DNA of 64,000 nucleotides from the NCBI RefSeq assembly GCF_036192275.1, contig NZ_CP108088.1, positions 3,597,501 through 3,661,500 of the forward strand. Reading direction: 5' to 3'. This stretch comes from Streptomyces sp. NBC_00250 (GTDB lineage: Bacteria; Actinomycetota; Actinomycetes; Streptomycetales; Streptomycetaceae). The notes beneath the pieces are model-generated. The model was not told the origin of the DNA and ran no database searches. It saw only the letters and a program-made list of their open reading frames with translations. A program made the translations under genes and the position numbers. Positions 15,529 through 30,592 of the stretch are shown here, piece after piece; position 1 is the first letter of the stretch; each line of letters begins with the position of its first letter.

Positions 15529-17196
15529 GTGACGCAGGACGACCTCATCGCCCGGGCCCAGGCATGGCTCGCCGAGGACCCCGACAGTGAGACCCGGGAG
15601 GAGCTCGCCGCGCTCCTCGACCGCGGCGCGAGCGACGAGATCGCCGCCCGATTCGCCGGCACGCTGCAGTTCGGCACCGCCGGGCTCCGCGGTGAGCTGG
15701 GCGCCGGGCCCATGCGGATGAACCGTTCGGTCGTCATCCGCGCCGCCGCCGGCCTCGCCGCGTACCTCAAGGCGCAGGAGCCCTCCGGGAGCGAAGGAGG
15801 GGCCGGGCTCGTCGTCATCGGCTACGACGCCCGCTACAAGTCGGCCGACTTCGCGCGCGACACCGCAGCCGTGATGACCGGCGCGGGCCTGCGCGCCGCG
15901 CTCCTCCCCCGCCCGCTGCCGACGCCCGTCCTCGCGTACGCCATAAGGCATCTGGGCGCCGTCGCGGGTGTCGAGGTCACCGCGAGCCACAACCCGCCGC
16001 GCGACAACGGCTACAAGGTCTACCTGGGCGACGGCTCGCAGATCGTGCCGCCCGCCGACGCGGAGATCGCCGCCGAGATCGACGCGATCCGCTCGCTGCA
16101 CGACGTGCCGCGTCCGGAGGCCGGCTGGGAGACCCTCGGTGACGAGGTCCTGGGCGCCTATCTGGAGCGTACGGACGCCGTCCTGACCCCTGGGTCCCCC
16201 CGCACCGCGCGGACCGTCTACACGGCCATGCACGGCGTCGGCAAGGACGTCCTGACGGCGGCCTTCGCCCGGGCCGGCTTCCCGCCGCCCGCGCTCGTCG
16301 CCGCGCAGGCCGAGCCGGACCCGGCGTTCCCGACGGTCGCGTTCCCGAACCCGGAGGAGCCGGGTGCCATGGACCTCGCCTTCGAGGCGGCCCGGGCCGT
16401 GGACCCCGACCTGATCATCGCCAACGACCCGGACGCCGACCGCTGCGCCGTGGCCGTGCCCGACGCGACCGTCGTCGGCGGCTGGCGGATGCTCCGCGGC
16501 GACGAGGTGGGCGCGCTGCTCGCCGCGCACCTGGTGCACAAGGGCGCGACGGGCGTGTTCGCCGAGTCGATCGTGTCGTCCTCGCTGCTCGGCCGGATCG
16601 CGGAGGCCGCGGGCGTCGGCTACGAGGAGACGCTGACCGGCTTCAAGTGGATCGCCCGCGTCGAGGGCCTGCGGTACGGCTACGAGGAGGCGCTCGGCTA
16701 TTGCGTCGACCCGGAGGGCGTCCGCGACAAGGACGGCATCACGGCGGCGCTGCTCGTGACCGAGCTCGCGTCGGTGCTCAAGGAGCAGGGCCGGACGCTG
16801 ACCGACCTGCTCGACGACCTGGCGGTCGCGCACGGGCTGCACGCCACGGACCAGCTGTCGGTGCGGGTCGAGGACCTGAGCATCATCGCGAACGCCATGA
16901 CGGCGCTGCGCGAGCGGCCGCCGGTCTCGCTCGCCGGTCTGACGGTCGTGTCGGCGGAGGACCTGACGAAGGGCACGGAGTCGCTGCCCCCGACGGACGG
17001 GCTGCGGTACCACCTGGAGGGCGACTACAAGGCCCGGGTGATCGTCCGCCCGAGCGGCACCGAGCCGAAGCTCAAGTGCTACCTAGAGGTCGTGGTGCCG
17101 GTCGCCGCGGCGGTCGACCTCGCCCCGGCGCGGGCGACGGCCGACGAGGTGCTGGTGGCGATCAAGCGGGACCTGTCGGCGGCGGCGGGTCTCTGA
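15529..17196 (+). CDS. phosphohexomutase (phosphoglucomutase/phosphomannomutase family)
   Basis: A 555-residue alpha-D-phosphohexomutase. It carries the phosphoserine loop TASHNPPRDNGYKVY with Ser153, the Mg site NDPDADR (Asp300, 302, 304), the sugar-specificity loop YEEALGYC, and the phosphate-binding RPSGTEPKLKCY near the C terminus. It follows deoD. In nucleoside salvage it may convert ribose-1-phosphate or deoxyribose-1-phosphate to the 5-phosphates that DeoC needs, as PGM2-like mutases do. The long length and position favour that over plain phosphoglucomutase, but this is inference. The GTG at 15529 has GAAAGG upstream. Confidence 0.88.
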   Translation: MTQDDLIARAQAWLAEDPDSETREELAALLDRGASDEIAARFAGTLQFGTAGLRGELGAGPMRMNRSVVIRAAAGLAAYLKAQEPSGSEGGAGLVVIGYDARYKSADFARDTAAVMTGAGLRAALLPRPLPTPVLAYAIRHLGAVAGVEVTASHNPPRDNGYKVYLGDGSQIVPPADAEIAAEIDAIRSLHDVPRPEAGWETLGDEVLGAYLERTDAVLTPGSPRTARTVYTAMHGVGKDVLTAAFARAGFPPPALVAAQAEPDPAFPTVAFPNPEEPGAMDLAFEAARAVDPDLIIANDPDADRCAVAVPDATVVGGWRMLRGDEVGALLAAHLVHKGATGVFAESIVSSSLLGRIAEAAGVGYEETLTGFKWIARVEGLRYGYEEALGYCVDPEGVRDKDGITAALLVTELASVLKEQGRTLTDLLDDLAVAHGLHATDQLSVRVEDLSIIANAMTALRERPPVSLAGLTVVSAEDLTKGTESLPPTDGLRYHLEGDYKARVIVRPSGTEPKLKCYLEVVVPVAAAVDLAPARATADEVLVAIKRDLSAAAGL

Positions 17197-17210
17197 CCCT
17201 CGCACAGCCA

Positions 17211-17247
17211 CGAAGGGCCGGTACGGGGACTCCGTACCGGCCCTTCG
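17211..17247. terminator. bidirectional terminator, phosphomutase / pstB
   Basis: A 16-bp perfect stem (17211-17226 with 17232-17247, arm CGAAGGGCCGGTACGG) between convergent genes. Confidence 0.9.
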
Positions 17248-17324
17248 GCCGTCCGGGTGAAACCCGCACGGCACATGACGTCTCTCGGCTCCCGCACGCC
17301 GGGGGCGCACGCCGGAGATCGGTC

Positions 17325-18179
17325 TCAGCCGAAGCGGCCGTTGACGTAGTCGGAGGTGCGCGGATCGGTCGGGGAGTTGAACACCGTCTCCGTGGGCCCC
17401 TGCTCGACGATCACTCCGGGGGTGCCCTGTTCGGCGAGGAAGAAGGCGCAGGAGTCGGAGACGCGGGCCGCCTGCTGCATGTTGTGGGTGACGATGACGA
17501 CGGTGACCTCCGACTTCAGCTCGGCGATGGTCTCCTCGACGCGCCGAGTGGAGGTCGGGTCGAGCGCCGAGCAGGGTTCGTCCATGAGCAGGACCCGGGG
17601 GCGGACGGCGAGCGAGCGGGCGATGCAGAGGCGCTGCTGCTGGCCGCCGGAGAGCGCCCCGCCGGGCTGCCGCAGCCGGTCCCTGACCTCGTTCCAGAGG
17701 CCGGCCCGGGTCAGGCACTCCTCGACGAGGTCGTCCTTGGCCTCCTTGCCGGCCCGGATGCCGCCGAGCTTCAGGCCGGCGAGGACGTTCTCGTACAGGG
17801 ACATCGCGGGGAACGGGTTGGGCTTCTGGAAGACCATGCCGATCTCGCGGCGGGCGTGGGTGATGCGGCGGCCCCGGTCGTAGATGTCGGCGCCGTCGAG
17901 GAGGACCCGGCCGGCGAGCGAGGCGGTGCCGGTGAGTTCGTGCATCCGGTTGAGGATGCGCAGGAAGGTCGACTTGCCGCAGCCGGAGGGGCCGATGAGG
18001 GCGGTGACCTCACGGGCGGGCATGGCGAGCGAGACCCGGTCGAGGACCTTGCGGTCGCCGAACCAGGCGGAGACGGAGTCGGCTTCGAGGTCGGCGGCAC
18101 GGGACGGGGCCGCCGTGCCGCCGACCGGCACGAGCGGCGGGACGGGCGGCAGGGTGACGGTGTCGGCGAGATCGGTCAC
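17325..18179 (-). CDS. pstB: phosphate ABC transporter ATP-binding protein
   Basis: A 284-residue ATPase of the phosphate importer class. Walker A is GPSGCGKST, the signature is LSGGQQQRLCIARSLAV, Walker B is VLLMDEP, and the switch His is in VIVTHNMQQAAR. The segment RILNRMHE and the phrase MVFQKPNPFP are specific to PstB. The first 30 residues are a Pro/Ala-rich addition. It is the last gene of the surface cluster, 19 bases after the sortase-like gene and 7.9 kb from its cognate permease genes, an unusual separation. The GTG start is at 18179. Confidence 0.93.
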   Translation of the reverse strand: MTDLADTVTLPPVPPLVPVGGTAAPSRAADLEADSVSAWFGDRKVLDRVSLAMPAREVTALIGPSGCGKSTFLRILNRMHELTGTASLAGRVLLDGADIYDRGRRITHARREIGMVFQKPNPFPAMSLYENVLAGLKLGGIRAGKEAKDDLVEECLTRAGLWNEVRDRLRQPGGALSGGQQQRLCIARSLAVRPRVLLMDEPCSALDPTSTRRVEETIAELKSEVTVVIVTHNMQQAARVSDSCAFFLAEQGTPGVIVEQGPTETVFNSPTDPRTSDYVNGRFG

Positions 18180-18198
18180 GGTGTGAACTCCACAGCGG

Positions 18199-19074
18199 TC
18201 AGAGGAGGTTGGGGAGGAGCCGGGTCAGTTCGCCGGAGACGAGGACGCCGAGGGCGAGGAGGACCGGGACGGCGGTGACCCAGGTCTGGCGGTTTCCCCA
18301 GCGGCGGCGGGCGAGGACGGTGAGCAGGGCGGCGAGGAGCAGCGCCTGGGCGCCGAGGAAGATCCCGGGCCAGGCGTCGGGGTCGCCCGCGAGGGGCTTC
18401 TCGGCGGCCGTGATCCAGCCGGGGCGCAGCGGCCGGGGCGGGCTGGGCCGGGCTGCGCCGAGGAGCCTGGCGTCGATGCGGACGATGTCCTCGGGGGTGT
18501 ACGCGCCACCGCTCGCGGTCATCAGGGTGAGCCGTCCCTCGCCGGAGGCGAGGGCCGCGGGGTTGGGGTCACCGGGGTGCCGGACGCCCGTCACCTCGTA
18601 CACCGCCTCGCCCTGACCGGTCGCCACCTCGACGCGGGCGCCGTTCGGGAGGCGGTGCACGTCGTTGAAGGGGCTGCCGTAGCCCCACTTGCGGCCCATG
18701 ATCACGCTGGCCCCGGCCTGGCCGGGCAGGGCGGTGTCCCGGCGGTGCCCGGGCCCGGACATGAGGACCTCGGAGGTGGTGCCCTCGGCGACGACCTCGC
18801 GGAGTCCGAGCGCGGGGATGCGGAGCAGGGCGACGGGGGCGCCGGGTTCGAGCGGCTTGCCGTCGTAGGTGAGCTGCCCCACCGGGGCGGTGCCGAGGGC
18901 GAGTTGCTCGCGCAGTTCGTCGTAGGCGGTGGACTGCTCGCGGGCGTGCTGGAGGTGTCCGACGACGGTGAGGTTGGCGGCGAAGCCGATGAGCAGCGCG
19001 GCGAGGACGGACAGCGCCGCCCCGGCCAGGGCGAGCCCGGCGCGGGGGGCGGTGGGGGGCGGTGCGGTGGTCAC
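18199..19074 (-). CDS. catalytically degenerate sortase-fold membrane protein
   Basis: A 291-residue protein with an N-terminal transmembrane helix (about 13-38) and an extracellular class E-like sortase domain (about 75-205). Two extra C-terminal helices follow (about 236-256 and 264-286). The sortase landmarks are recognisable (LLRIPALG, ALPGQAGASVI, RLTLMTASGG, YTPEDIVRIDARL). The catalytic His of the usual G-H-R is Arg128 (MGRKWGYG), and the catalytic Cys of the usual LTLxTC is Ala187. It should not perform transpeptidation and may instead bind or scaffold the LAXTG proteins encoded beside it. It overlaps the upstream gene by 4 bases (ATGA), showing coupled translation. Confidence 0.85.
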   Translation of the reverse strand: MTTAPPPTAPRAGLALAGAALSVLAALLIGFAANLTVVGHLQHAREQSTAYDELREQLALGTAPVGQLTYDGKPLEPGAPVALLRIPALGLREVVAEGTTSEVLMSGPGHRRDTALPGQAGASVIMGRKWGYGSPFNDVHRLPNGARVEVATGQGEAVYEVTGVRHPGDPNPAALASGEGRLTLMTASGGAYTPEDIVRIDARLLGAARPSPPRPLRPGWITAAEKPLAGDPDAWPGIFLGAQALLLAALLTVLARRRWGNRQTWVTAVPVLLALGVLVSGELTRLLPNLL

Positions 19075-20351
19075 GGGCGGGCGCCCGCCTTGCGGCGGCG
19101 GGTCTGGATCACGGCCGCCGCGCCGAGGAGGCAGAGTGCGAGGGAGCCGAGCGCGGCGGAGGCGGCGGTGGAACCGGTGGCGGCGAGGCTGCCGTTGCCG
19201 CCGTCGGTGCCGGTGCCTCCGGAGCCGCCGCTGGTGCCGCTTCCGCCGGAGTCGCCGGAACCGCCCTGCGCATCGCTGCCGCCGGAGCCGCCCGAGGTGC
19301 CCGAGTCGCCGCCGGAGCTGCCGCCCGAGGTGCCGGAGTCGCCGGTCGCGGTCGGCGACGGCGTGTCGGTGCCGGTCGGACCCGGGGTGTCGCTCGGCGT
19401 GTCGCTGGGGGTGTCCGTCGGCGTGGGCGTGTCGGTGGGGTCGTCCGTCGGGGTCGGCGTGCCGGTGCCGGTGCCCGTCGGGGTGGGGGTGGTGCCGGTG
19501 GGGGTCGGGGTGGTGCCGGTGGGGGTGGGGGTGGGTTCGGCCACGTACAGCGAATAGACGAACGAGGCGGGGGTGTAGGCCTCGGGGTCGGTGGGGGTGA
19601 ACGTGACGACCACCGGCAGGCCGTCGTTGTTGACGGCGGACTCCGTGACGGTGACCTGGGCCTTCCCTCCGACGACGTCGACGGTGCCGATGTCGACGAG
19701 TTCGTCGTTCACGAACTTCTGGAAGCTCACCGATCCGGCGGCCTCCTTGGGCTGGAAGGTCGCGATGATCTCGGCCGGTGCGCCGACGACGGCGACGGCG
19801 GGGTCGGAGACGACCTCCAGCAGGGTCGCCTTCTGCGCGATCGGGGCCCAGGTGTCACCGGTGACCTGGATCATCGTGGAGAAGTAGTCCTCCGACTCGG
19901 CTCCGATGCCGGTCCGGCAGTAGAGGCGAAGCTCGTAGCGGCCGTCCAGGGGCCCTTCGGGGATGAAGTTCCGGAGGCCCTCCTGGAGCGAGGTGTGAGT
20001 GGCCTCGACGTCGACGGGCCGGGTGAAGGGCCCCGCGCTCAGGGGGTCCCCGGGGACGGTGCCGGCTATCGCGTGGAAGGTGCCGAGGACGGGTTCGACC
20101 ACTCCGAGCCGGGCCTTGAGGTAGGGCTTGGCGGGGTCGGCCGGTGCCGGGCAGGCGGCGGTGGTGGTGACCCCGGTGGCGAAGGGCCGGGCGGTGACGG
20201 AGCCCGAACCGCCCTGGAGCGTGAAACTCCCGTGGACGGTGGCGGCCTTGGCGGGGACGGCCAGGGCCAGGGCGGCGGCGAGGGCGCCGCAGAGGAGGGC
20301 GAGTGCCGTCAGGAGGGCGACGGGTGATCTGAGTGGTGCGGGGCGGTTCAT
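19071..20351 (-). CDS. secreted Ig-like surface protein with LAATG sorting signal
   Basis: 426 residues. A signal peptide (1-36, ending AKA) is followed by two beta-rich Ig-like domains, roughly 38-165 and 168-270. A Thr/Pro-rich stalk (about 272-330, repeats of TPTPTGT) and a Gly/Ser stalk (335-385) come next. The C terminus is a cell-wall sorting signal: LAATG at 389-393, a hydrophobic helix and a RRRK tail. LAXTG is the motif used by Streptomyces class E sortases. The tail-to-head 4-base overlap with the degenerate sortase gene suggests they act together. It has no enzyme motif and is likely a wall-displayed accessory or adhesive subunit. Confidence 0.85.
   Translation of the reverse strand: MNRPAPLRSPVALLTALALLCGALAAALALAVPAKAATVHGSFTLQGGSGSVTARPFATGVTTTAACPAPADPAKPYLKARLGVVEPVLGTFHAIAGTVPGDPLSAGPFTRPVDVEATHTSLQEGLRNFIPEGPLDGRYELRLYCRTGIGAESEDYFSTMIQVTGDTWAPIAQKATLLEVVSDPAVAVVGAPAEIIATFQPKEAAGSVSFQKFVNDELVDIGTVDVVGGKAQVTVTESAVNNDGLPVVVTFTPTDPEAYTPASFVYSLYVAEPTPTPTGTTPTPTGTTPTPTGTGTGTPTPTDDPTDTPTPTDTPSDTPSDTPGPTGTDTPSPTATGDSGTSGGSSGGDSGTSGGSGGSDAQGGSGDSGGSGTSGGSGGTGTDGGNGSLAATGSTAASAALGSLALCLLGAAAVIQTRRRKAGARP
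19475..19540. repeat. tandem repeat encoding TPTPTGT stalk
   Basis: GTGCCGGTGGGGGTCGGGGTG-type units are repeated head to tail inside the LAATG gene and encode the Thr/Pro stalk. Such arrays often change length between strains. Confidence 0.6.
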
Positions 20352-20449
20352 GCGGGTCCCCCAGGAGTCGGATGCGGGAGCGGGTGGGCCGGTGGTGGCG
20401 GGATCGGGCGGCGTGGTGTGCCCGCCCGGAGGTCGGGCAATCGGGCGGG

Positions 20450-20487
20450 CAGTCAGTCGGGCGGTCGGGCGGTCGGGCGGTCGGGAA
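20450..20487. repeat. 8-bp tandem repeat (GGTCGGGC)n
   Basis: About four successive copies of GGTCGGGC in the 226-bp gap between the two secreted protein genes. Apart from this and the hairpin at 20526-20551, nothing else was found in the gap. Confidence 0.7.
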
Positions 20488-20525
20488 GCGATACGGGGAG
20501 CGGATGCACCACGGATACGCCGGGG

Positions 20526-20551
20526 GGCCGGGCACCCGAAGGTGCCCGGCC
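20526..20551 (-). terminator. terminator after secreted PBP-like gene
   Basis: An 11-bp perfect stem GGCCGGGCACC (20526-20536) / GGTGCCCGGCC (20541-20551) closed by a CGAA tetraloop, 27 bases past the stop codon. Confidence 0.75.
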
Positions 20552-20577
20552 GGTGTGCGGTCAGGAAGCGGTGGTGA

Positions 20578-21552
20578 TCAGCGCTCGCCCTTGACGGTGG
20601 TGGCGCCGCAGGCGGTGCCGAGGGCGCCGAAGCCGTAGTTGGTGATGGTCGTGGTGGCGGCGCAGACCTTGGAGGTCGAGCCGACGAACGTGGAGGAGAT
20701 CGTGGCGTTGGTCAGCTTCGGGGTCGGGACCACGTTGTAGACGTCACGCAGGAAGGGGAACGCCGTGTTCAGGGTCTTGTCGGCGTTGCGGGGCGCGACG
20801 GTGCCGACGGAGCCGAGGACGGCCGCGCCGCGGCGGTTCGCGACGACGCCCTTCTCCTGCGCCGTGTACTGGGCGACGGAGTACGGGGCGATGTCACCGG
20901 CGGTGTCGAGGACGGTGCCGTCGTTCTCCTGGACGCCCTGCTGGACGCAGGAGCCCGGGGCGGTCACGCCGATGGAGGAGAGGAAGAACTGACGCGTGCC
21001 GGAGTTGGCCTGCGGCAGGATCGGGGTGAGCGCCACGCCGTTGAGGGCCGTGAGGTTGCACTCGTAGATGTCCTTGAGCTGCGTCGCCGTCAGGTCGGAG
21101 GGCAGCGTGCTGTCGGAGCGCTTCACCCAGGACACCGCGTCCTTGGCGAAGGGGATCCAGGTGAGGTCCGTGGTGCTGGTGTCGGCCGGGCCGCGCGAGG
21201 AGCGGGCGAAGTCGAGGCAGCCGGAGTTGGTGTCCACGGCGTTGCGCAGCGCGTCGATGCCGGCGGAGGAGCCGTTCGGGCGGTTGATCACACAGCCGGC
21301 CGACTTGGTCTTGATGGTGGCCGTGCCGGTGGCGTCCCAGGACGCGATGATCTTCTGACCGATGGCGTTGACGACGACGTTGCCGAGGCCGTTCATGACG
21401 TCCTGGGTCGTGTCCGAGCCGGTGCCGGCGAGGGTGCGGTACTGGGTGATCGGGTTGGGGTCGGCCTGCGCGGCGGGGGCGAGGGCGACACCGAGACCGA
21501 GGGCGGCCACACCGAGGGCGGCACCGATACGAGCGCGGGACTTGACGTTCAC
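20578..21552 (-). CDS. secreted periplasmic-binding-protein-like protein
   Basis: 324 residues with a signal peptide (1-30, ending AQA). The mature part follows the PstS-like PBP fold: GTGSDTTQDVMNGL at the first ligand loop, a DALRNAVDTNSGCLDFARSSRG region, KDAVSW, and PQANSGTRQFFLSSIG at the second ligand loop. The arginine that in PstS lies four residues before SGT is missing, so phosphate binding is doubtful. Several cysteines could form disulfides. It has no lipobox and no sorting signal, so it is probably released. Its own terminator and 131-bp upstream gap suggest a separate or internal promoter in the cluster. Confidence 0.82.
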   Translation of the reverse strand: MNVKSRARIGAALGVAALGLGVALAPAAQADPNPITQYRTLAGTGSDTTQDVMNGLGNVVVNAIGQKIIASWDATGTATIKTKSAGCVINRPNGSSAGIDALRNAVDTNSGCLDFARSSRGPADTSTTDLTWIPFAKDAVSWVKRSDSTLPSDLTATQLKDIYECNLTALNGVALTPILPQANSGTRQFFLSSIGVTAPGSCVQQGVQENDGTVLDTAGDIAPYSVAQYTAQEKGVVANRRGAAVLGSVGTVAPRNADKTLNTAFPFLRDVYNVVPTPKLTNATISSTFVGSTSKVCAATTTITNYGFGALGTACGATTVKGER

Positions 21553-21683
21553 TTCTGATCTCCTCCGTGGAAACGGATGTCATGGAATGGACGCACAAGC
21601 AAAATCCGGATTCTTCAACCGGCCGGTCCGTCGACCGGCCGGGAACAACAATTCCTCACCGGTGGCACGGGCGGCCACCACGG

Positions 21684-24257
21684 TCAGCCGCTCTTCAGGT
21701 TACGAATTCCTGTCCTAGGTGAATCCGAGGGAATTCGACGGCGGCCGGCGGCGGCCAGGACCGCGGGTCCCGCGATACCGGCGACGCCGCCGACGACCAG
21801 GACCGCGAGAAGGACCCAGCGAATGACGCCGAGCACCTGGGAGGGCGTGCTGCCGGTGTCGGCGAGCCGCTCCCCCGGTGCGCCCCCGGAGCCGTTCCCG
21901 CCCGCGCCGGAGGCCGGCGGCGGCGCGGCGGAGGACGGCGACCCGGCGGCCGCGCCCGTGTCCGTACCGCCGCCGGTGGACCCGCTCGCGGACCCGCTGC
22001 CGGAACCGGAAGCCGAGCCCGAGCCCGAGCCGCCGGAGCCTGTGCCCGTGGAGCCCGTCGTGCCGTTCGTTCCCTGGCCGCCGCCGGAGTTCGGGCCTCC
22101 GGTCGCGCCGCCGTCACCGCCGGCCGTGCCGCCGGTGGTGGCGCCCGGTCCGGTCGGCGTGCCGCGCTCCAGGCGGTCGGCCGCCGCGGCGGCCTGGGCC
22201 TTCAGCTTCGCGGGCATCGGGGCGTAGCCGAGGGGCAGTTCACCGGGGGCGGTGCCCTGCTTCTGCCCGGGTCCGGCCGCGTACCGCAGCACGCGCGCGT
22301 AGTCCTTGCGGGCGTCCGCCGGAAGGCCGGTGGAGGCGGCGGCGTAGGTCACCACCGTCAACGGGTAGGCGTCCTTCGTCGCGCGAGCCGGGTCGGGGAC
22401 GAGGACCCCCGGGACGGAGGAGTCCTTGAACTGTTCGACCGCCTTGAGCATGGCCCGGGTGGTGGGCCGGACGTAGGTGCCGTCGGCGTTCGCCAGGGCC
22501 GCGGTCTGGAGCTGATAGCGGGTTGCCGAGGAGGAGTCGATGATGCCGTAGGCGCGTCGGCTGCCCGGCAGGACCAGGGGGCCGGTGAGCTTGAGTCCCC
22601 CCGTGGCGGTGTCCTCGGCGACCTCGTACTTGGTGTTGTTGGTGCCCCTCCGTGTCGACCGGGCGGCGTCGTGGAAGTCGCCGGCGTACGGCGAGCGGTC
22701 GATCACCCCGTACCTGATGGACTTCCCCGACAGCAGGAGTTCCGTCTCCGTGGGATCTGCCTTCGGGAACTCGTAGAGACTGGACGTGCTGATTCCCAGA
22801 CTCTTGTAGTGGGGGTTCATCTTCATTCCCCACGGGTCCGGCTTCCCGTCGAGGAAGGAACGCGCGTCGGCGTTGCTCCGCAGATAGTCCCAGACGACTT
22901 TCGCGGTGTCCGCCCGATCGGCGGAAAGGAGAATTCCGCCGGGATAGCTCAGCTCCGCCGGCCGGAACTCCTCGAATTGCGGATTCAGCTTCAGGAACTC
23001 CGGGTCCCGGACGATCGAGACCGGATTGCCCTTCAGATGCGCCAGGGGCTCCATGCCCCACGTGTTCACCCGGACGTCGTAGGGGTAGGACAGCGTGAGC
23101 AGCTTCGCCAGCAGCCGTGGGTTCAGCCGCAGGTCCTTCACGAGCCCGATCCTGTCGGCCTCCCAGAAGAACCCGACGGTCAGCGCGCTGACGGCCACGG
23201 GTGCGTGGACGAAGCCCGCCTTCTCCCCGCCTTCCACGGGCTCGACGGTGAAGCCGAGACCGGGCGAGGTGGAGGTCGGGGCGAGCAGACTCGACCGGGC
23301 CAGCTCCTCGCCCCGCTGGGAGAAGGTGAAGCGGGTGGAGCCGCCCGCGCACAGGGCCGCCTGCCAGGAGGTGACGGCTTCCGTGACCAGCTCGGAGCCG
23401 GTCATGCGACGCTCGGCCTTGTCCGTGGGGCAGGGGTCGCCGACGGGCAGGAAGTCGAGGGGGAAGGTGATGCGCTGGTTCCAGTTGGTGGTGGAGAGCG
23501 GCGAGGACTGCAGACTTCCGTTGTTCGCGGTCCCGTCCGGGTCACGGGAGCCGCGGGGCACCACGACGAGCCAGCACCTTCGGCCTCGGGCGTCCGCACC
23601 GGTACCGACCGGATCGCCGCACCCGAGGTGCGGAGCCTCCCGGGTGGACTGCAGGTTGAATCCCACCTCGCCCGTCCCGTCCGGCTGGGTGACGGCGAAG
23701 GACTCCTCGTTGGTGTCGTTGTTGCTGAAGTAGGTCCAGTCGGTGGACGTCTTCGTCGGAGGGCCCGAGACCGGGGTGAAGGGCACGAACGGAGAGGTCG
23801 TCTGCCCCGGCAGACCCGGAGCCGGAATCGGCTCGTCGTACTCCGTCTCCCGCGGGTCCGTGCCGACGGCGATCACCCGCTGCAGGACGAACTGCCCGAA
23901 GTCGAGAGCGGCGGGCGCGGCGCCGAACTGGCACTGCTCCCGCTTTGGTCCCGCCGGGTCGTCCCCCCAGCACTGCATGATCTGGAGGAAGTCGGTCTTC
24001 TTGCTGTACGTCTGCTTCCCGCCCTTCCACGTGACGCGCACTCCCTGTCCGCGGAGGTTCTTCGTCTGGTGGACGGTCACCTCCAGCTTCGAGAAGTCGT
24101 CGTGGGGCCCCTTGGTCCCTCGTTTCGTCAGCGCCGAGCTCTGCGACGGGTCGGTCGCCGCCACCGCCGGACTGTCCTGCGGCAGCGGAACGAGGGCGAG
24201 CAGAACGGCGGCGAGCAGCGCCCCGAGTCCGGCCCTTCTGGTGAGCGTCGGTTTCAC
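21684..24257 (-). CDS. large secreted PBP-like surface protein with LADTG sorting signal
   Basis: 857 residues with a signal peptide (1-34, ending AVA) and a long extracellular part with several cysteines. The part around 640-715 (PLTVVTYAAASTGL, RVLRYAAGPGQKQG, ELPLGYAPMPAKL) mirrors the C-terminal lobe of the adjacent PstS-like protein, suggesting an expanded solute-binding fold. About 725-795 is Gly/Ser/Thr stalk. The wall signal is LADTG at 798-802, then a hydrophobic helix, AAGRRR and a short polar tail. It overlaps pstS by 4 bases and is therefore co-translated with the transporter. The ligand is unknown. Confidence 0.82.
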   Translation of the reverse strand: MKPTLTRRAGLGALLAAVLLALVPLPQDSPAVAATDPSQSSALTKRGTKGPHDDFSKLEVTVHQTKNLRGQGVRVTWKGGKQTYSKKTDFLQIMQCWGDDPAGPKREQCQFGAAPAALDFGQFVLQRVIAVGTDPRETEYDEPIPAPGLPGQTTSPFVPFTPVSGPPTKTSTDWTYFSNNDTNEESFAVTQPDGTGEVGFNLQSTREAPHLGCGDPVGTGADARGRRCWLVVVPRGSRDPDGTANNGSLQSSPLSTTNWNQRITFPLDFLPVGDPCPTDKAERRMTGSELVTEAVTSWQAALCAGGSTRFTFSQRGEELARSSLLAPTSTSPGLGFTVEPVEGGEKAGFVHAPVAVSALTVGFFWEADRIGLVKDLRLNPRLLAKLLTLSYPYDVRVNTWGMEPLAHLKGNPVSIVRDPEFLKLNPQFEEFRPAELSYPGGILLSADRADTAKVVWDYLRSNADARSFLDGKPDPWGMKMNPHYKSLGISTSSLYEFPKADPTETELLLSGKSIRYGVIDRSPYAGDFHDAARSTRRGTNNTKYEVAEDTATGGLKLTGPLVLPGSRRAYGIIDSSSATRYQLQTAALANADGTYVRPTTRAMLKAVEQFKDSSVPGVLVPDPARATKDAYPLTVVTYAAASTGLPADARKDYARVLRYAAGPGQKQGTAPGELPLGYAPMPAKLKAQAAAAADRLERGTPTGPGATTGGTAGGDGGATGGPNSGGGQGTNGTTGSTGTGSGGSGSGSASGSGSGSASGSTGGGTDTGAAAGSPSSAAPPPASGAGGNGSGGAPGERLADTGSTPSQVLGVIRWVLLAVLVVGGVAGIAGPAVLAAAGRRRIPSDSPRTGIRNLKSG

Positions 24258-26104
24258 CGTCCCCCTCCCTGGCGTTCGGCGCGGGCCGCGAGGGCGCGGC
24301 CGACGAGTGGCGGGGCGATGACGGTGGCGAGGAGCAGGAAGGCGGAGAGGGCCATGAGGATCCCGCGCAGGCCGCCGCCCGTGTCGGCGGCGAGGGTGAC
24401 CGGGGTGCCGACGATCTGGTTGCCGCCGGAGTCCTGGCCGGTGCCGGTGCCTCCGCCCGTACCGCCGCCGTCCCCGGCGAGGATCTCGCCGGTGTCGGGG
24501 TCGACGGCTCCGCCGCCCGTGGCGCCGCCGGAGGCGGATCCGCCTCCGGAGCCCGTGCCGCCGCCCGTACCGCCGGTCGCGGAACCCCCGGTGCCGGAGC
24601 CGGTGCCGGAGCCGGTGGCGCCGCCGGTGCCACCACTGGCCGAACCGCCGTTGCCGCCCGAGCCGTTGGATCCGTTGGTGCCGGATCCGCCGGAGCCGCC
24701 GTTCGAGGAGCCGGAGCCGTTCCCGGTTCCGTTCCCGCCGGTCGAGCCGCCCGTGGCGGAGCCGCCGCCGGTCGAACCGCCGTTGTTCACCTGCGTGTTC
24801 GTGCCCTTGGCGCCGCCCGTGCCGTCACCGCACTGCGTCGGACCGCGCTTGTCGCAGGGCTTCGGCCGCGGGGCGTTCTTGGCGAGGGTGTTCGTGCCGT
24901 CGGCCGAGAACGTGGGGTTGCGGCAGTCGGACAGGTCGACCGCGCCGGTCGGCGCGCCGGGTACCCGGCGGACCTGGTCGAAGCCGGCCTGGACGAGGTT
25001 CCTCGGGAGCGGCGAGTAGCCGAGTTCCTCGGCCTGCTGCTGGCCCTCGCAGAGGAAGTAGCGGGCGAAGGTACCGAGCGAGCGGCCCTTCTCGGTGGTG
25101 TGCGGGGCGGTGTCCGAGGTGGGGACGACCATGTAGCTGTAGCTGGAGAGCGGGTAGCTGCGCTGGTCCCCGGAGCGGTAGACGTCGTCGAGGATCTGGG
25201 TCAGGTAGTTCGTCGAGTTCCGGTCGGAGTTGATCCGGGCCTTGAGCAGGGCGACGGCGACGGCCTGGGCGGTCGGCTCGACGTAGTAGCCGGAGGAGTT
25301 GAGCACCTTGACGACCGGGAAGTGGGCGTTGATCGCGTACGAGTACTCGACGTAGGTGATGGCGCCCTCGCCCTGCGGCTGGCGGACGTGCGCGGAGACC
25401 CCGAGCGAGCCGGACTTGGCGACGGTGGTGGTGCCGGGCACGACGGGGAAGTACGAGGTCATTCCGCAGGGGGTGGAACGGCCGGCGCGCCGGCAGTAGT
25501 CGTCCCAGACGGAGCCGTTCTCCTTGGCGAGCCAGGTGGTGAACTGGGCGGTCGTGCCGGAGCCGTCGGAGCGCACGACGGGGACGATGCGGCGGGCGGG
25601 GAGGGTGAGGCCGGGGTTGTCGGCCTTGATCTCGGGCGCGTTCCACATGGTCAGCCGGCCGGTGAAGATCTTCGCGAGGACGGGGCCGGAGAGCCGCAGG
25701 TTGGTGACCTGGCGGCCGCCGATCCGCAGGTTGTACATGAAGGCGGTGCCACCGGCGACGATCGGCATGTACGCGTAGCCGCGGCGCGGCGGTACGTCGG
25801 TGGCGCCGCCGTCGTTGAGGCCGTACGGGATCTCGGAGACGGCGAAGTCGACGGTGCCGTTCTTGAACTGCTCGCGGCCCTGCGAGGAGCCGTTGGCGTT
25901 GAAGTTGACCGTGAGGCCGACGTTGGCGCCGATGTTGCGGCGCCACTGCTCGACGGCGTTGGAGCTCCAGGTGGAGCCGGAGCCGGTGATCTTGGTGTAC
26001 CCGGCGGCCTGCGCGGCCGGCGGATGGACGAGCAGGGCGAGCACCGCGCACAGGGCGGCGGCGAGCCCCAGGGCGGTGCGGGCGAGCGGGGCGGCGGATC
26101 TCAC
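24254..26104 (-). CDS. pstS: membrane-anchored phosphate-binding protein PstS with long Gly/Ser stalk
   Basis: 616 residues from the GTG at 26104, preceded by GAGGAG. A signal peptide (1-33) leads to a full PstS domain (about 35-400). The phosphate-pocket residues are retained: TGSGST at 40-45, Ser/Asn near 72-74, Asp86 in VDFAVSE, and R178-x3-SGT (182-184). This spacing equals that in E. coli PstS. Residues about 440-575 are a Gly/Ser/Thr-rich stalk, then AADTG, a hydrophobic helix and a basic tail. Ordinary PstS proteins are lipoproteins of about 370 residues; this one has no lipobox and is held by its C terminus. Short overlaps join it to pstA and the LADTG gene. Confidence 0.88.
   Translation of the reverse strand: MRSAAPLARTALGLAAALCAVLALLVHPPAAQAAGYTKITGSGSTWSSNAVEQWRRNIGANVGLTVNFNANGSSQGREQFKNGTVDFAVSEIPYGLNDGGATDVPPRRGYAYMPIVAGGTAFMYNLRIGGRQVTNLRLSGPVLAKIFTGRLTMWNAPEIKADNPGLTLPARRIVPVVRSDGSGTTAQFTTWLAKENGSVWDDYCRRAGRSTPCGMTSYFPVVPGTTTVAKSGSLGVSAHVRQPQGEGAITYVEYSYAINAHFPVVKVLNSSGYYVEPTAQAVAVALLKARINSDRNSTNYLTQILDDVYRSGDQRSYPLSSYSYMVVPTSDTAPHTTEKGRSLGTFARYFLCEGQQQAEELGYSPLPRNLVQAGFDQVRRVPGAPTGAVDLSDCRNPTFSADGTNTLAKNAPRPKPCDKRGPTQCGDGTGGAKGTNTQVNNGGSTGGGSATGGSTGGNGTGNGSGSSNGGSGGSGTNGSNGSGGNGGSASGGTGGATGSGTGSGTGGSATGGTGGGTGSGGGSASGGATGGGAVDPDTGEILAGDGGGTGGGTGTGQDSGGNQIVGTPVTLAADTGGGLRGILMALSAFLLLATVIAPPLVGRALAARAERQGGGR
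24440..24790. repeat. low-complexity Gly/Ser/Thr coding repeat in pstS stalk
   Basis: Imperfect GCCGCCGGTGCC/GGAGCCGGT units encode GGSTGGNG-like repeats. Slippage-prone; length is likely to vary between strains and assemblies. Confidence 0.5.
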
Positions 26105-27411
26105 GGCGTACTCCTCGGAGGTACGGATCGGTCGGCGGGCGCGGCGGCGGACCCTGCCGGGCCGGGGGTGGGCGCGGCGGTCGCGGAGGCGGCCGGGGAC
26201 GGGACGTTCCCGGCCCCGGGGCCGGGAGCCCCCCGAGGGGTGGAGACCCACCGGGCCGCGTCCTGCCGGGAGGCGAGGGCGCGCCGCCGCTCCTGGCGCT
26301 TCGTCAGCTGCCCCGGTCCGCGCCCGCCCGCGATCCGCGCGAGGACGAAGAGGAGCAGGACGAGCAGCATGAGGACGGCGGCGGTGCCGAAGCCGCGGGC
26401 GATCATGTTCGGTTCGGGCGACTTGACGAGTTCGAAGGTGGCGAGCGGCAGGGAGACCTGCGCGCCGGAGGTCGGCAGGGCGTTCAGCTCGGCGGTGAAC
26501 CCGGCGGTCAGCAGCACGGGCGAGGTCTCCCCCACCCCGCGCGCGGTGCCGAGGATCACGGCCGTGGTCAGCCCCGAGCGGGCGGTCGGCAGGACGACGT
26601 GCCAGACCGTGCGCCAGCGGGAGGACCCCATGGCGTACGAGGCCTCCCGCAGCGTGCCGGGGACGAGCCGGATGACGACGTCGGAGGCGCGGATGATGAT
26701 CGGGAGCATCATCACGGAGAGGGCGAGCGAGGCGGCGAGCCCGGAGCGCTCGGTGCCCAGGGCCAGGATGACGGTCGCGTAGATGAAGAGTCCCGCGACG
26801 ATCGAGGGCAGCGCGGTCATGGCCTCGACGACGGTGCGGACCAGGCGGGCGAAGGGTCCGGGCACCTCGTTGAGGAAGACGGCGCAGACGATGCCGGTGG
26901 GCACGGTGAGCGCGAGCGCGATGCCGACCTGTTCGAGGGTGCCGACGACGGCGTGCAGGATGCCGCCGACGTCGAGCGGTTCGAGGGGGCCCGCCAGGCT
27001 CATGTCCTCGGTGAAGAAGTTGAGGTGGACGAGGGCCGCGCGGCCCTCCCAGAGCGTGAAGGCGACGACGAAGACGAGGACGGCGAGGAGCAGCAGCCCG
27101 AAGCTGCGGACGACGACGCCGGCGATCCGGTCCCGTACGGCGGGCCCGTCCTCGTCGAAGGAGACGAGCAGCGCGTAGAGCCCGAGGAAGAGGACGTACG
27201 CGACGATCACGAAGCCGACGGCGCCGCTGAAGGGCAGCAGGCGGGCGAAGAGGAGCCAGGTGAGGGCGATCGAGGCCGCGGCGGCGCCGAGCAGCGCGTA
27301 CACGTCGGAGGCGCGCGTGGTGCCGGTGGTGCGGCGGCGTTCGGGTCCGGGGGGCTGCGGGGCCCGCTCGGCGGGCGGTCGCAGCTTCGGCCGCTCCGGG
27401 GCGATGGTCAT
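26101..27411 (-). CDS. pstA: phosphate ABC transporter permease PstA
   Basis: A 436-residue inner membrane permease. The N-terminal 35 residues are Pro/Arg-rich. Two extra helices (about 38-80) precede the canonical six-helix core. The EAA-type loop is REASYAMGSSRWRTVWHVVLPTARSGLTTAVILGTARGVGETSPVLLTAG, which is the PstA signature. The tail after residue 375 is Arg/Ala/Pro-rich. It is longer than E. coli PstA (296) because of the added N- and C-terminal parts. The stop overlaps the pstS GTG, so the two are translationally coupled. It partners with PstC and PstB. Confidence 0.92.
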   Translation of the reverse strand: MTIAPERPKLRPPAERAPQPPGPERRRTTGTTRASDVYALLGAAAASIALTWLLFARLLPFSGAVGFVIVAYVLFLGLYALLVSFDEDGPAVRDRIAGVVVRSFGLLLLAVLVFVVAFTLWEGRAALVHLNFFTEDMSLAGPLEPLDVGGILHAVVGTLEQVGIALALTVPTGIVCAVFLNEVPGPFARLVRTVVEAMTALPSIVAGLFIYATVILALGTERSGLAASLALSVMMLPIIIRASDVVIRLVPGTLREASYAMGSSRWRTVWHVVLPTARSGLTTAVILGTARGVGETSPVLLTAGFTAELNALPTSGAQVSLPLATFELVKSPEPNMIARGFGTAAVLMLLVLLLFVLARIAGGRGPGQLTKRQERRRALASRQDAARWVSTPRGAPGPGAGNVPSPAASATAAPTPGPAGSAAAPADRSVPPRSTP

Positions 27412-27443
27412 CGGGTTCGGGTCCCCCTTGAGGAGCGCACGGG

Positions 27444-28484
27444 CTAGGCGTCGCTCGTGGCGCCGGAGCGGCTGCGGGCGACGATGGACGAGGCGGCGAA
27501 GTTGACGATCAGGGTCATGACGAAGAGGGCGAAGCCGGCCGCCATCAGGGCGGACATGCCGAAGGGCGTGGCCTCGCCGTAGCGCAGGGCGATGAGGGAG
27601 GACACCGAGCTGGTGCCGGTCTGCAGGACGTGCCACTGGATGGTGAAGACCTGCGAGATGACCATGTAGACGGCGATGGTCTCGCCGAGGGCGCGGCCGA
27701 GGCCGAGCATGGTGCCGCCGATCATGCCGCCCTTGCCGAAGGGGAGGACGACGCTGCGGATCATGCCCCAGCGGGTGGCGCCGAGCGCGTACGCGCCCTC
27801 GCGTTCGCCGGCGGGGGCCTGGGAGAAGACCTCGCGCATGATCGAGCAGATGATCGGCGCGACCATCATGGCGACGACGAGACCGGCGACGAAGGTGGAC
27901 GAGGTGTAGACGGTGGGCGGGGCCAGCGGATCGTCGGGGTCGGCGCCGTCGACGCGCAGGAACGGGATCCAGCCGAGGTACGTGGCGATCCAGCGGGCGA
28001 TGGGGAGGATCGACTCCTCCAGCCAGAAGACGCCCCACAGTCCGTAGACGACCGAGGGCACGGCGGCCATCAGGTCGACGGTGGAGATGAGGGTGCGGCG
28101 CAGCCGGGGCGGGGCGTACTCGGCGATGTAGAGCGCCGCCCCGGTGGCCAGCGGCACGGCCACGACGATCGCGACGAGGGCGATGAGGACGGTGCCGAGG
28201 AGGACGGCCGCGATCCCGAAGCGTCCGGAGTCGGGCTCCCAGCTCTCGGTGGTGAGGAAGGAGAATCCGGCGCGGTCGAGGGCCTGCCAGGCGCGCAGGA
28301 GCAGGAAGCCGCCGACGAGGAGCATGACCGCGAGGACGATGCCGCCGCCGGTGCGGGCGACGGCACGGAAGACCCGGTCGGGAAGGCCGGGGTCGGCGTG
28401 GAGCCGTCGCGGCGTGTCGGGCGGCGGGTCGGCCGGTCTGCCGGGCGGCGGGCCGGGCGGCGGGTCAAGGGTCTCGGTCGTCAC
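27444..28484 (-). CDS. pstC: phosphate ABC transporter permease PstC
   Basis: A 346-residue permease with six core helices. The Pro-rich N terminus (1-35) is cytoplasmic. The EAA loop is GEREGAYALGATRWGMIRSVVLPFGKGGMIGGTMLGLGRALGETIAVYMV, diagnostic of PstC. It is the first transporter gene of the cluster, 32 bases before pstA, with a GTG start at 28484. It lies 78 bases after the YegP-like gene in the same direction. No clear pair of PHO-box repeats is seen upstream, so classical PhoP control is not supported by the sequence. Confidence 0.93.
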   Translation of the reverse strand: MTTETLDPPPGPPPGRPADPPPDTPRRLHADPGLPDRVFRAVARTGGGIVLAVMLLVGGFLLLRAWQALDRAGFSFLTTESWEPDSGRFGIAAVLLGTVLIALVAIVVAVPLATGAALYIAEYAPPRLRRTLISTVDLMAAVPSVVYGLWGVFWLEESILPIARWIATYLGWIPFLRVDGADPDDPLAPPTVYTSSTFVAGLVVAMMVAPIICSIMREVFSQAPAGEREGAYALGATRWGMIRSVVLPFGKGGMIGGTMLGLGRALGETIAVYMVISQVFTIQWHVLQTGTSSVSSLIALRYGEATPFGMSALMAAGFALFVMTLIVNFAASSIVARSRSGATSDA

Positions 28485-28562
28485 GGGAAGGACGTAAGTC
28501 CCGCCCGGTGGCCAGGCCCGCCCCGCGACGTGAACGAGGGGCGTGCGCGGGGCAACTTCCGT

Positions 28563-28934
28563 TCACCGTAAGGCTGTTGAGGCCCATCTCGGCCCCTCGG
28601 TGGCGATCAGTGCCCGGAACCGCGCATAGGCGGTGCGACAGGTGGAGTGGCGCTCGTAGGAGCGTCCGGAGAGCGCGGCGGTGCGGCCCTCGGCGTCCCT
28701 CAGGAGCCACACCCAGCCGTTGCCCCCGGCGGTGTGCTGCACCCCGCCGGCCATGTCGGCGTACCCGGTGCACAGGGCCGCGAAGGCCGCCCGGCACCCG
28801 GCGTGGTCGTCGTAGCAGCCCCCCGACCGCGCGACGACCCTCCCGTTCTGTGCGACGAGTCGCCATCCGTAGCGTCCGTCGGCCCCCATGTCGACCAGAC
28901 AACGCGTCCCGGACACACCGGTGTCCTTGGTCAT
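28563..28934 (-). CDS. YegP/DUF1508-like tandem-repeat protein
   Basis: A 123-residue soluble protein with two copies of the DUF1508 unit. The first is YGWRLVAQNGRVVARSGGCYDDHAGCRAAF and the second VWLLRDAEGRTAALSGRSYERHSTCRTAY. Family members are small proteins of unknown function, usually with the N-G-x-V-x-A-x-S-x-x-Y signature. The ATG at 28934 is taken; a GTG five codons upstream is possible. It precedes pstC in the same direction and may or may not share its transcript. Confidence 0.75.
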   Translation of the reverse strand: MTKDTGVSGTRCLVDMGADGRYGWRLVAQNGRVVARSGGCYDDHAGCRAAFAALCTGYADMAGGVQHTAGGNGWVWLLRDAEGRTAALSGRSYERHSTCRTAYARFRALIATEGPRWASTALR

Positions 28935-29081
28935 CGCCCCCACCCCCACAGTCTCGGCAAGCGCAATCTATTGAGACGGGGGTGACAGTTGGGCGCTAAA
29001 CCATTTGCGGGTTGCACGCTTCACCAGGAGGTTGCCCCTAGGACACCGGCACCGGGGACGACCCGCCGGGAACGCGCCGGC

Positions 29082-29150
29082 GTGACGCGAAGAGGCACGG
29101 GGCGCGAAGAGGCGTGTGACGCGAAGAGGCCCGTGGCGCAGGGGGCTCGT
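29082..29150. repeat. 17-bp tandem repeat, core GCGAAGAGGC
   Basis: GCGAAGAGGC recurs at 29087, 29104 and 29121, exactly 17 bp apart, with a decayed fourth unit after it. It lies in a 272-bp gap (28935-29206) that otherwise holds only the hairpin below. Confidence 0.7.
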
Positions 29151-29158
29151 GACGTGCC

Positions 29159-29195
29159 GAGGGGGTGTCCTGCCTGATCGGCAAGACACCCCCTC
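29159..29195 (-). terminator. terminator after PH-domain gene
   Basis: An 11-bp stem GAGGGGGTGTC (29159-29169) / GACACCCCCTC (29185-29195) plus an inner TGCC/GGCA stem, 12 bases past the stop codon. Confidence 0.85.
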
Positions 29196-29206
29196 GTCCT
29201 GTCGGG

Positions 29207-29908
29207 TCAGCCCGTCGCCAGCAGGATCACCACGAGCAGCAGCCCGGCGACCGCGGGGCCGACGATCTCGTACGCCCAGCGCACCCGCGCCTCGCCCTGC
29301 GCACCCGGGGTCCCGGCGCGGCGCTCGGCCAGCTCGCGCAGGTCGGCGACCGTCTGGTCGGTGGGCGCGGTCCGGGAGGCACTGTCCCGGACGTTGGCGC
29401 TCACCGAGGTACGGCCGTGCGGGTCGTCCTGGGAGGCGCGGGCGGCCTTACGGGAGGCCTTCTTGCGCTGGCGCAGCGAGACGGGGATGGCCCACAGCTG
29501 GTACTTGGCGCCGTCCTGGGTGAAGACCTCGCTGGAGTAGCCGGCACGTACGTCGGCGACCGTCGCCCAGGGCAGCGTGATCGACCGGAACGGGTTGCGG
29601 ATCCGGAGCCGGTCGTCGTTGGCGTACACGGCGGGCCGGATCGTGAACGCGACGATCAGCGGCACGGCGAGGACGAGACCCGCGAGCGCGAGCCAGGGCG
29701 ACCGGCCCTCGCCGCGGAACATCACGTCACCGGCGAACAGGGCCGCGAGGATCAACAGGAACACCCCGCTCGCGATCCCGAGCGGCGACCGGAAGACACG
29801 GTCGGGGGACTGCGGCCCCGCGGACTTCTGCCCTGCGGACGGCTGCTCGGGGGTCGACTCGCGGCTCGGCTCGTGGCTGGGCTCGGGGGTCGGCTCGGGG
29901 GTCGTCAT
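29207..29908 (-). CDS. PH-domain membrane protein
   Basis: 233 residues: an acidic Pro/Glu/Ser-rich N terminus (1-38), two transmembrane helices (about 43-62 and 70-88), and a bacterial PH-like beta domain (about 90-145). The domain signature VYANDDRLRIRNPFRSITLPWATVADVRAGYSSEV is typical. A basic/polar linker and a final C-terminal helix (215-232) follow. Function is unknown; the fold often binds lipids or scaffolds membrane proteins. From memory it is next to the phosphomutase gene in S. coelicolor, so the Pst cluster seems inserted between them. Confidence 0.8.
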   Translation of the reverse strand: MTTPEPTPEPSHEPSRESTPEQPSAGQKSAGPQSPDRVFRSPLGIASGVFLLILAALFAGDVMFRGEGRSPWLALAGLVLAVPLIVAFTIRPAVYANDDRLRIRNPFRSITLPWATVADVRAGYSSEVFTQDGAKYQLWAIPVSLRQRKKASRKAARASQDDPHGRTSVSANVRDSASRTAPTDQTVADLRELAERRAGTPGAQGEARVRWAYEIVGPAVAGLLLVVILLATG

Positions 29909-29941
29909 GGGCCGATTCTGCCTCAGCCGGGCACTGGGGGC

Positions 29942-30592
29942 TCAGGCGGCCCGCGTGGCCACGAGATCCGCGTACAGAATGATGTTGTCGGGGCGGTGGC
30001 CGTCGACCAGCTCGCCGCCGCAGGTGATGAGGCGCAGCTCGGGGCGCTTCGTGTCGCCGTACACCTTGGCCGTCGGGAAGGTGTCCTTGTCGACCTGCTC
30101 CAGTTCCCTGACCCGGAAGACCGCGGTGGTGCCGTCGGCCCGGGTCACGGTGATCTCGTCGCCGACCCGGACCTTGGAGACGTTCTTCAGTACGGCGGGG
30201 CCGCGGGCGGTGTCGAAGTGCCCGATGAGGACGGCGGGGCCGGTCTGCCCGGGCGTGACGCCCTTGTCGTACCAGCCGATGCGGTCGGCGTCCGCGACCG
30301 AGGGCACCTCGACGGTGCCGTCGGCGGCGAGCCCGAGCCCCAGGACGGGCCCGGTGGGCCCGGTGTCGACCCCGGCGGCGGGGACCTGGACGCGGACGGG
30401 CAGGGAGCGGGCGAGCGGCTTCACGGGCGCCGCGGTGGGTGCGGGGGCGGCGGTGGCCCCGGAGATCCGGGCAGGCGGGGTGACGGGCTGCTGCTCGCCC
30501 CCCGCGGAGCAGCCGGTGAGCGCGGCGAGGACGGCCAGGCCCGCCAGGAGGAGGACGGGGGCGGTACGGGCGGGGTGACGGCGGCGGTTCAC
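29942..30592 (-). CDS. srtF: class F sortase (lipobox-containing)
   Basis: A 216-residue transpeptidase of the actinobacterial class F group. The N terminus is hydrophobic with lipobox LTGC (Cys28), so it may be lipid-anchored rather than a plain transmembrane sortase. A Pro/Ala linker leads to the beta-barrel (about 65-213). Catalytic residues are all present: His125 (IGHFDT), Cys191 (RLITCGGEL) and Arg200 (GHRPDN). It contrasts with the dead sortase at 18199. It lies downstream of a large surface protein gene, but a strong hairpin separates them. Class F sortases have poorly defined substrates. Confidence 0.9.
   Translation of the reverse strand: MNRRRHPARTAPVLLLAGLAVLAALTGCSAGGEQQPVTPPARISGATAAPAPTAAPVKPLARSLPVRVQVPAAGVDTGPTGPVLGLGLAADGTVEVPSVADADRIGWYDKGVTPGQTGPAVLIGHFDTARGPAVLKNVSKVRVGDEITVTRADGTTAVFRVRELEQVDKDTFPTAKVYGDTKRPELRLITCGGELVDGHRPDNIILYADLVATRAA

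Follow-up and report, generated by a model that had tools for sequence, protein, structure and literature searches.

A Pst-type importer cluster with additional PstS-fold proteins and a predicted pseudo-sortase in Streptomyces sp. NBC_00250 and other actinobacteria

Phosphate limitation controls antibiotic production in Streptomyces. In the Isd heme relay, an ATP-binding cassette importer is served by NEAT receptors held at different depths of the wall, with sortase B encoded in the same cluster. A review whose main text does not use the word sortase treats bacterial phosphate uptake as PstSCAB plus low-affinity Pit transporters, and the additional phosphate systems of mycobacteria provide a precedent for actinobacteria with more than a single high-affinity transporter for phosphate (PMC7866108). 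WxL proteins are reported to share gene clusters with DUF916 proteins (PMC10599100), and the main text of PMC13251363 places the five sortase candidates of Actinoplanes missouriensis on separate loci and does not contain the word 'phosphate'. The cluster considered here occupies positions 17325-28484 of a 64,000-nucleotide stretch (the window) of the 9.27-Mb genome of Streptomyces sp. NBC_00250, and comprises eight minus-strand genes which code, in reading order, for PstC, PstA, PstS, a large PstS-fold protein with an LADTG motif, a free secreted PstS-like protein (fPBP), an LAATG-tail protein, a sortase-domain protein and PstB. All eight had been named in an original prediction made from the DNA letters, and each was found where that prediction had placed it; family matches agreed for PstC, PstA, PstS, fPBP, the sortase-domain protein and PstB.

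Comparison with these described systems reveals a mixture of shared and distinctive features. Like PstSCAB, the cluster contains members of the PstC, PstA, PstB and PstS families with transport motifs, the outline of a phosphate pocket and PHO-box-like sites; unlike PstSCAB, its PstC proteins form a separate clade, its PstS carries a stalk and a C-terminal helix, and it adds two further PstS-fold proteins, a pseudo-sortase and surface proteins. In combining an importer with several receptors and a sortase-type protein it may operate by analogy with Isd without being a member of that system, although its receptors have the PstS rather than the NEAT fold, its sortase is inactive by sequence, and tethering is mostly by membrane helix. 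The pseudo-sortase has the fold and family of the class E sortases (SrtE of Streptomyces), from which it differs in the absence of catalytic His, Cys and Arg, and in the presence of two C-terminal helices and an LLPNL tail. Pairs of WxL-like and WxL-interacting protein (WxIP)-like genes recall the WxL plus DUF916/WxIP clusters, but here lie within a pst cluster alongside a pseudo-sortase, and no such pair was found in the window. The original prediction knew of no described system with this content, and consistent with that view none was found among the titles and opening abstract lines listed from an open-licence library of papers.

The interpretation preferred, to which a probability of a little under one half is attached, is that the cluster specifies a dedicated second Pst-type importer in the actinobacterial envelope, deployed mainly when phosphate is limiting, its receptors distributed over several positions and its pseudo-sortase acting as scaffold; import under phosphate limitation is favoured because PHO-box-like sites are enriched and the transport residues are intact. 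In such an assembly, the PstS receptor would be tethered to the membrane by its C-terminal helix and a long flexible stalk rather than by a lipid, while the free fPBP, with its own conserved pocket, could catch ligand within or beyond the wall. The membrane-tethered LADTG protein would probably be structural, for example a docking or gating partner, and the non-cutting pseudo-sortase would serve as a membrane scaffold gathering the C-terminal anchors of the receptor proteins beside PstC and PstA; in many lineages, immunoglobulin (Ig)-like, WxL and WxL-interacting proteins would fix the assembly to peptidoglycan. Ligand would then be passed between the PstS-fold proteins in a relay resembling that of Isd. 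A more specific formulation, in which the pseudo-sortase is a hub that binds, without cutting, sorting-signal-like anchors and thereby unites the three PstS-fold proteins, the Pst motor and the peptidoglycan-bound WxL/Ig proteins in an envelope-spanning complex, so that phosphate or a phosphate compound is captured outside the wall and relayed inward, is possible but doubtful. A second conserved importer of this type in many Actinomycetota, with its own receptors, PHO-like sites and pseudo-sortase, would change the current picture of phosphate uptake, link WxL-type surface proteins to a nutrient transporter, and offer a conserved example, open to experiment, in which a catalytically dead sortase is retained for structural reasons. 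The occurrence of the cluster in many soil actinobacteria points to an unrecognised route for the surface gathering of phosphate or a related nutrient.

The evidence that the genes belong together came from surveys at several taxonomic depths. For the class survey, the sortase-like protein was used as the query and 54 places were fetched, 52 of them scoring above 100 bits plus two weaker ones (G137 and G241), second copies (at least G054:C102) and short fragments being omitted; matches above 100 bits were recorded in 50 of the 394 genomes of the class. Taking the fetched loci and the window together, and with several of the fetched loci stopping at contig ends, the sortase-like gene was recorded in 55, a relative of the LADTG protein in 48, fPBP in 46, PstB in 45 and PstS in 44 (either strand). 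Named genomes were then scanned with aligned LADTG relatives as query. Of 563 candidate stretches, 527 proved to be relatives, and the best 79 of these, a choice leaning towards close kin, were retained as loci L108-L186; they include Streptomyces, Actinoplanes, Cellulomonas, Amycolatopsis, Actinokineospora, Curtobacterium, Frondihabitans and others. Two permeases plus PstS were present in 76 of the 79 (PstC and PstA share one scan profile, and were counted as two permeases, not each by name), the remaining three being contigs of less than 9 kb. The core was defined as PstC, PstA, PstS and PstB together with the large LADTG protein, fPBP and the pseudo-sortase. It was whole in every one of the 59 named loci in which the LADTG gene is preceded by at least 6 kb and followed by at least 9 kb; two of these loci contain split genes (L127, where the sortase and PstB lie in several frames and the LADTG match is shortened, and L140, where PstS is split). 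The gene order of the window recurred in 65 of the 94 loci with all core families, fPBP lying elsewhere in 20 of the other 29.

By way of contrast, occurrence across genomes was patchy: a relative of the LADTG protein was detected in 27 of the 199 genomes of the genus and in 8 of the 396 genomes of the phylum (one a partial match, one the genome of the window itself), and three loci outside the class (L217-L219) carried the same core genes. Although patchy, the cluster proved complete in every named locus for which sufficient DNA was available. Patchiness of this kind is what would be expected of mobile or easily lost genes, and could suggest a duplicated pst operon whose unrelated neighbours arrived by chance or hitch-hiking; however, the invariably complete core of the flanked loci, together with the recurrent gene order and the presence of the cluster outside the class, refutes such adjacency as a general account and leaves it scarcely tenable. 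The same counts give strong support to the earlier view that Pst importer and surface genes belong to a single system, and conservation in other genomes, whose failure had been set beforehand as grounds for abandoning that idea, was confirmed. Carriage on plasmids was considered and rejected, a single partial match (31% of the query) being found among 72,556 plasmid records, in a record of 11.9 Mb. Second copies of the cluster (L056, L060, L220 and L221) showed no PstB in the fetched DNA on either side, and a contig labelled as belonging to a Bifidobacterium breve metagenome bin (L158) held a partial cluster with 39% identity to the window, and is possibly mis-binned.

The features assigned to the window are collected in Table 1.

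Table 1. Position, strand and supporting evidence for the features of the cluster, in reading order, with the upstream PHO-box-like repeat last.
Feature	Position	Strand	Evidence
PstC permease, second Pst importer	27444..28484	-	TIGR02138, 267 bits, over cut-off
PstA permease	26101..27411	-	TIGR00974, 204 bits, over cut-off
PstS; Gly/Ser-rich stalk, C-terminal membrane helix	24254..26104	-	TIGR00975, 218 bits, over cut-off
Large PstS-fold LADTG protein	21684..24257	-	Structure model, Foldseek, family alignments
LADTG sorting-signal-like motif, lineage-specific	21852..21866	-	Sequence; tail counts in relatives
fPBP, free secreted PstS-like protein	20578..21552	-	PBP_like_2 PF12849, 40.3 bits
GC-rich hairpin 3' of the fPBP gene	20526..20551	-	Fold: 11-bp stem, 4-base loop
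LAATG-tail surface protein	19071..20351	-	LAATG motif at 19173-19187
Pseudo-sortase	18199..19074	-	PF04203, 55.6 bits
PstB ATPase	17325..18179	-	TIGR00972, 337.2 bits, just under cut-off of 343.2
PHO-box-like direct repeat upstream of pstC, antisense to pstC	28550..28571	+	12.2 bits, 18-site matrix

Taken together, the PstC, PstA, PstB and PstS equivalogs were all matched, PstB just below its cut-off, with the transport residues and ATPase motifs in place. The PstB proteins retained the Walker A motif (109/109), the signature (107/109), Walker B (108/109) and the H-loop (108/109), while a GR..GE motif was present in 102 of 103 cluster PstC proteins and an AR..GE-type motif in 106 of 107 cluster PstA proteins. 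In alignments with the solved E. coli chains, PstC Arg237 and PstA Arg220 were both matched; mutation of PstA Arg220, or of PstC Arg237 and Glu240, is reported in PMC5775613 to block transport but not signalling, and the Glu240 numbered there had no exact counterpart, the motif Glu being counted as residue 241 in the solved chain. Judged by sequence, the importer motor and its transport residues are intact. A FastTree phylogeny separated 103 cluster PstC proteins from 31 other PstC proteins without exception (support 0.846), and the cluster proteins were the better conserved, with a mean identity of 64% as against 55% within the others and 42% between the two groups (500 sampled pairs for the within-cluster figure and every fifth cluster sequence for the between-group figure). 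PstC matches were obtained in 47 of 47 genomes searched, with at least four permease matches in 45, three in G320 and two in G137. This last genome, of 1.5 Mb and 97% complete, is the source of locus L105, where its sole PstC-type gene is divergent from adjacent genes for the LADTG protein, the pseudo-sortase and fPBP. In the tree this PstC falls among the non-cluster PstC proteins, as if the receptor module worked there with the ordinary Pst.

The cluster PstS proteins matched solved phosphate receptors and kept the Arg (103/113), Ser (109/113) and Gly (113/113) columns of the pocket, but the position corresponding to Asp56 of known PstS proteins was occupied by Glu in 99 of 113, including that of the window, by Asp in 13 and by Ser in one, so the canonical pocket with Asp56 is altered in most of them. 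The fPBP family, in turn, displayed conserved pocket motifs (GSDTtQ, ARSS and SGTR in 121 sequences) of which ARSS and SGTR replace the PstS pattern, suggesting a ligand other than protonated phosphate. These substitutions, and the retention of another PstC in most genomes, form the basis of the main rival explanation, namely that the import substrate is some other anion or phosphate compound (an ester, a wall-polymer phosphodiester or another oxyanion) selected by fPBP, with the cluster acting in starvation-induced salvage. Set against it are the conserved Arg, Ser and Gly of the PstS pocket and the phosphate-permease motifs retained by PstC and PstA, and on balance it is considered unlikely. 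The original prediction had credited PstS with a complete phosphate pocket, which holds for the three conserved columns but fails at the Asp56 position.

A C-terminal hydrophobic helix was present in 116 of 118 PstS proteins, preceded by a stalk with a median length of 169 residues after the domain. The window's PstS ends in AADTG, which is not a standard motif, and an L[AP]xTG motif in the last 60 residues was found in none of the 118, a looser pattern matching four. The corresponding figures for LADTG-type proteins were a C-terminal helix in 106 of 127, L[AP]xTG in nine (the window, seven Streptomyces in which the protein is at least 68% identical, and one Cellulomonas) and the looser pattern in 23. 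Wall anchoring as a conserved principle was ruled out by these tail counts, in which L[AP]xTG is rare and the C-terminal helix common; a conserved combination of sorting motif, helix and basic tail of the LPXTG/LAXTG type was not a feature of the receptors as a family, although the window's own LADTG and LAATG proteins possess all three elements. Replacement of the usual lipid anchor by stalks and wall signals, as originally predicted, was accordingly borne out for the stalk and helix and not for the wall signals, and capture far out in the wall had to be abandoned as a general description.

The LADTG protein itself consists of an N-terminal beta-rich region, a PstS-like two-lobe domain, a stalk and a C-terminal membrane helix. 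A structure model based on 20 sequences gave pLDDT values of at least 70 for 519 of 852 residues, with the stalk below 50, and in Foldseek searches with it the leading matches were PstS structures, with a best E of 7.4e-13 and, across the first 20 matches, TM-scores by target of 0.68-0.77 and rmsd values of 4.4-8.0. The usual PstS ligand motifs were not visible by eye in the family alignments. The former description as a PBP-like LADTG protein is upheld for the fold, and the LADTG motif is specific to a lineage. Among the 120 database entries listed, the protein is nearly always a 'hypothetical protein' and once 'PBP domain-containing'. None of the 121 fPBP sequences possessed a C-terminal helix.

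The pseudo-sortase comprises an N-terminal membrane helix, a class E-like sortase domain, a C-terminal helical hairpin and an LLPNLL tail. Its model (pLDDT 91.9), which shows one long helix at the N-terminus and two helices at the C-terminus, matched several sortase classes, 4d70 first with a TM-score by target of 0.78 and SrtE 5go5 at 0.71, and the match to NF033747 reached 70.7 bits against a cut-off of 160. The fold of an active class E sortase was present and the catalytic His, Cys and Arg were not: the His column held Arg in 115 and Lys in 3 of 118 aligned relatives, the active-site stretch contained no Cys in any of the 118, and the catalytic Arg column was lost, the changes in the window being His to Arg and Cys to Ala with loss of the Arg. 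Five other sortase-domain proteins of the same genome retained the His, with Cys in the expected or the next column; the L008 sortase and the third PBP (L019), taken from the wrong strand, were excluded from this comparison, and one further alignment of the relatives also includes L007 and L008 on the wrong strand. The dead sortase lacking His and Cys of the original prediction was thereby corroborated across the family, and the protein is predicted from its sequence no longer to cut. The residues around the site are nonetheless highly conserved, and the tail is LLPNLL in 62 of 118, with LPN among the last eight residues in 106. This tail follows the last predicted helix, might lie in the sortase groove and bears a faint likeness to motifs of the LPxTG type. 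Among the 120 database entries listed, the names given to the protein are mostly sortase, class E sortase or similar.

The near-invariant Arg at the His site could, conversely, mark a new active site, and 13 sortase-domain matches were recorded in the window's genome, while 53 of 105 complete loci encode a labelled cluster protein that ends in L[AP]xTG plus a helix; the pseudo-sortase might on these grounds be an enzyme with unusual chemistry, or another cellular sortase might anchor the cluster proteins covalently. Given the uniform absence of the active-site Cys, the loss of the Arg column, and the lack of the motif from most examples of both membrane-tethered PstS-fold proteins, this explanation is decidedly improbable.

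The surface proteins were the most variable part of the cluster. The window's LAATG protein had no Pfam match and only weak LPXTG/LAVTG anchor matches, below cut-off, while the LAATG-type proteins of relatives carry Big_3_5 Ig-like domains. A WxL domain (PF13731) was recognised in L156 (26.5 bits, cut-off 25) and WxIP (PF06030) in L060 and L074 (29.1 and 31.1 bits, cut-off 27.3), the other WxL/WxIP-like members tested in Pfam being below cut-off or without a match. Purpose-built profiles detected WxL-like proteins in 37 and WxIP-like proteins in 36 of 105 complete loci, and both in 35; neither profile matched the window's cluster region (12001-36000). That surface genes lie inside the cluster, with the LAATG gene overlapping that of the pseudo-sortase, and that WxL-like and WxIP-like genes travel together, would fit the originally suggested alternative of a transporter turned into a sensor or power source, ATP use by PstB driving or signalling the assembly of Ig/WxL proteins held by the pseudo-sortase. 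However, some two thirds of complete loci, the window included, lack WxL/WxIP proteins, and the surface proteins vary where the importer, the PstS-fold proteins and the pseudo-sortase are constant in the flanked loci; with the transport residues also intact, such a role is distinctly unlikely.

Regulation was approached with a matrix built from PHO-like sites (n = 18) that precede other pst genes, applied at a threshold of 10 bits. Sites at or above this value were present in 45 of 102 upstream regions of cluster PstC genes and in 30 of 124 fPBP regions, compared with 25 of 30 of the regions from which the matrix was derived, 13 of 145 control genes that have an upstream gap (drawn solely from L054-L107 and the window) and 13 of 510 dinucleotide-shuffled sequences, an enrichment upstream of PstC. 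The remaining regions, mostly inside cluster coding DNA, gave 8 of 113 for PstS, 5 of 121 for LADTG, 2 of 118 for the sortase and 5 of 109 for PstB. Control by PhoP is a likely inference for part of the family.

Several observations weigh against a dedicated phosphate importer. The PHO counts treat related loci as separate and are not independent, 57 of 102 PstC upstream regions are without a site of at least 10 bits, and the site in the window is single and antisense. The need for the cluster is not obvious, because permease matches indicate another Pst beside it in 46 of 47 genomes. The change from Asp56 to Glu, with the altered fPBP pattern, could mean another ligand, no phosphatase gene was noticed in the conserved core, and one second copy of the cluster is without a local PstB in the fetched DNA.

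Inspection of the window confirmed the short stop/start overlaps claimed for pstA-pstS-LADTG and LAATG-sortase, each of the three junctions (pstA-pstS, pstS-LADTG and LAATG-sortase) being a 4-base GTGA. The ATG start of pstA was used, an alternative GTG start being possible farther upstream. A single transcript across the whole cluster is not assured, because 131 bases lie before the fPBP gene and 226 after it, the latter gap containing a strong hairpin, possibly a terminator or a messenger RNA stabiliser. This hairpin was not called by a terminator scan that requires a T run, which found no T-tailed terminators at 17000-29000; a scan of the same interval for sigma-70-like promoters found none, and no Rfam RNA element matched at gathering score within 16500-30000.

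Elsewhere in the same genome, a further set of pstS, pstC and pstA genes is located at about 4.377-4.380 Mb, and a third PBP_like_2 gene (99.5 bits) at G000:C1:4980715-4981470 lies outside both pst clusters. Just upstream of the cluster described here, a minus-strand group at 29942-30592, 29207-29908 and 30822-32450 encodes a class F sortase (over cut-off with NF033748, at 186.5 bits) and, next to it, a PH-domain protein and a surface protein whose weak GVDTG-type tail scored below cut-off.

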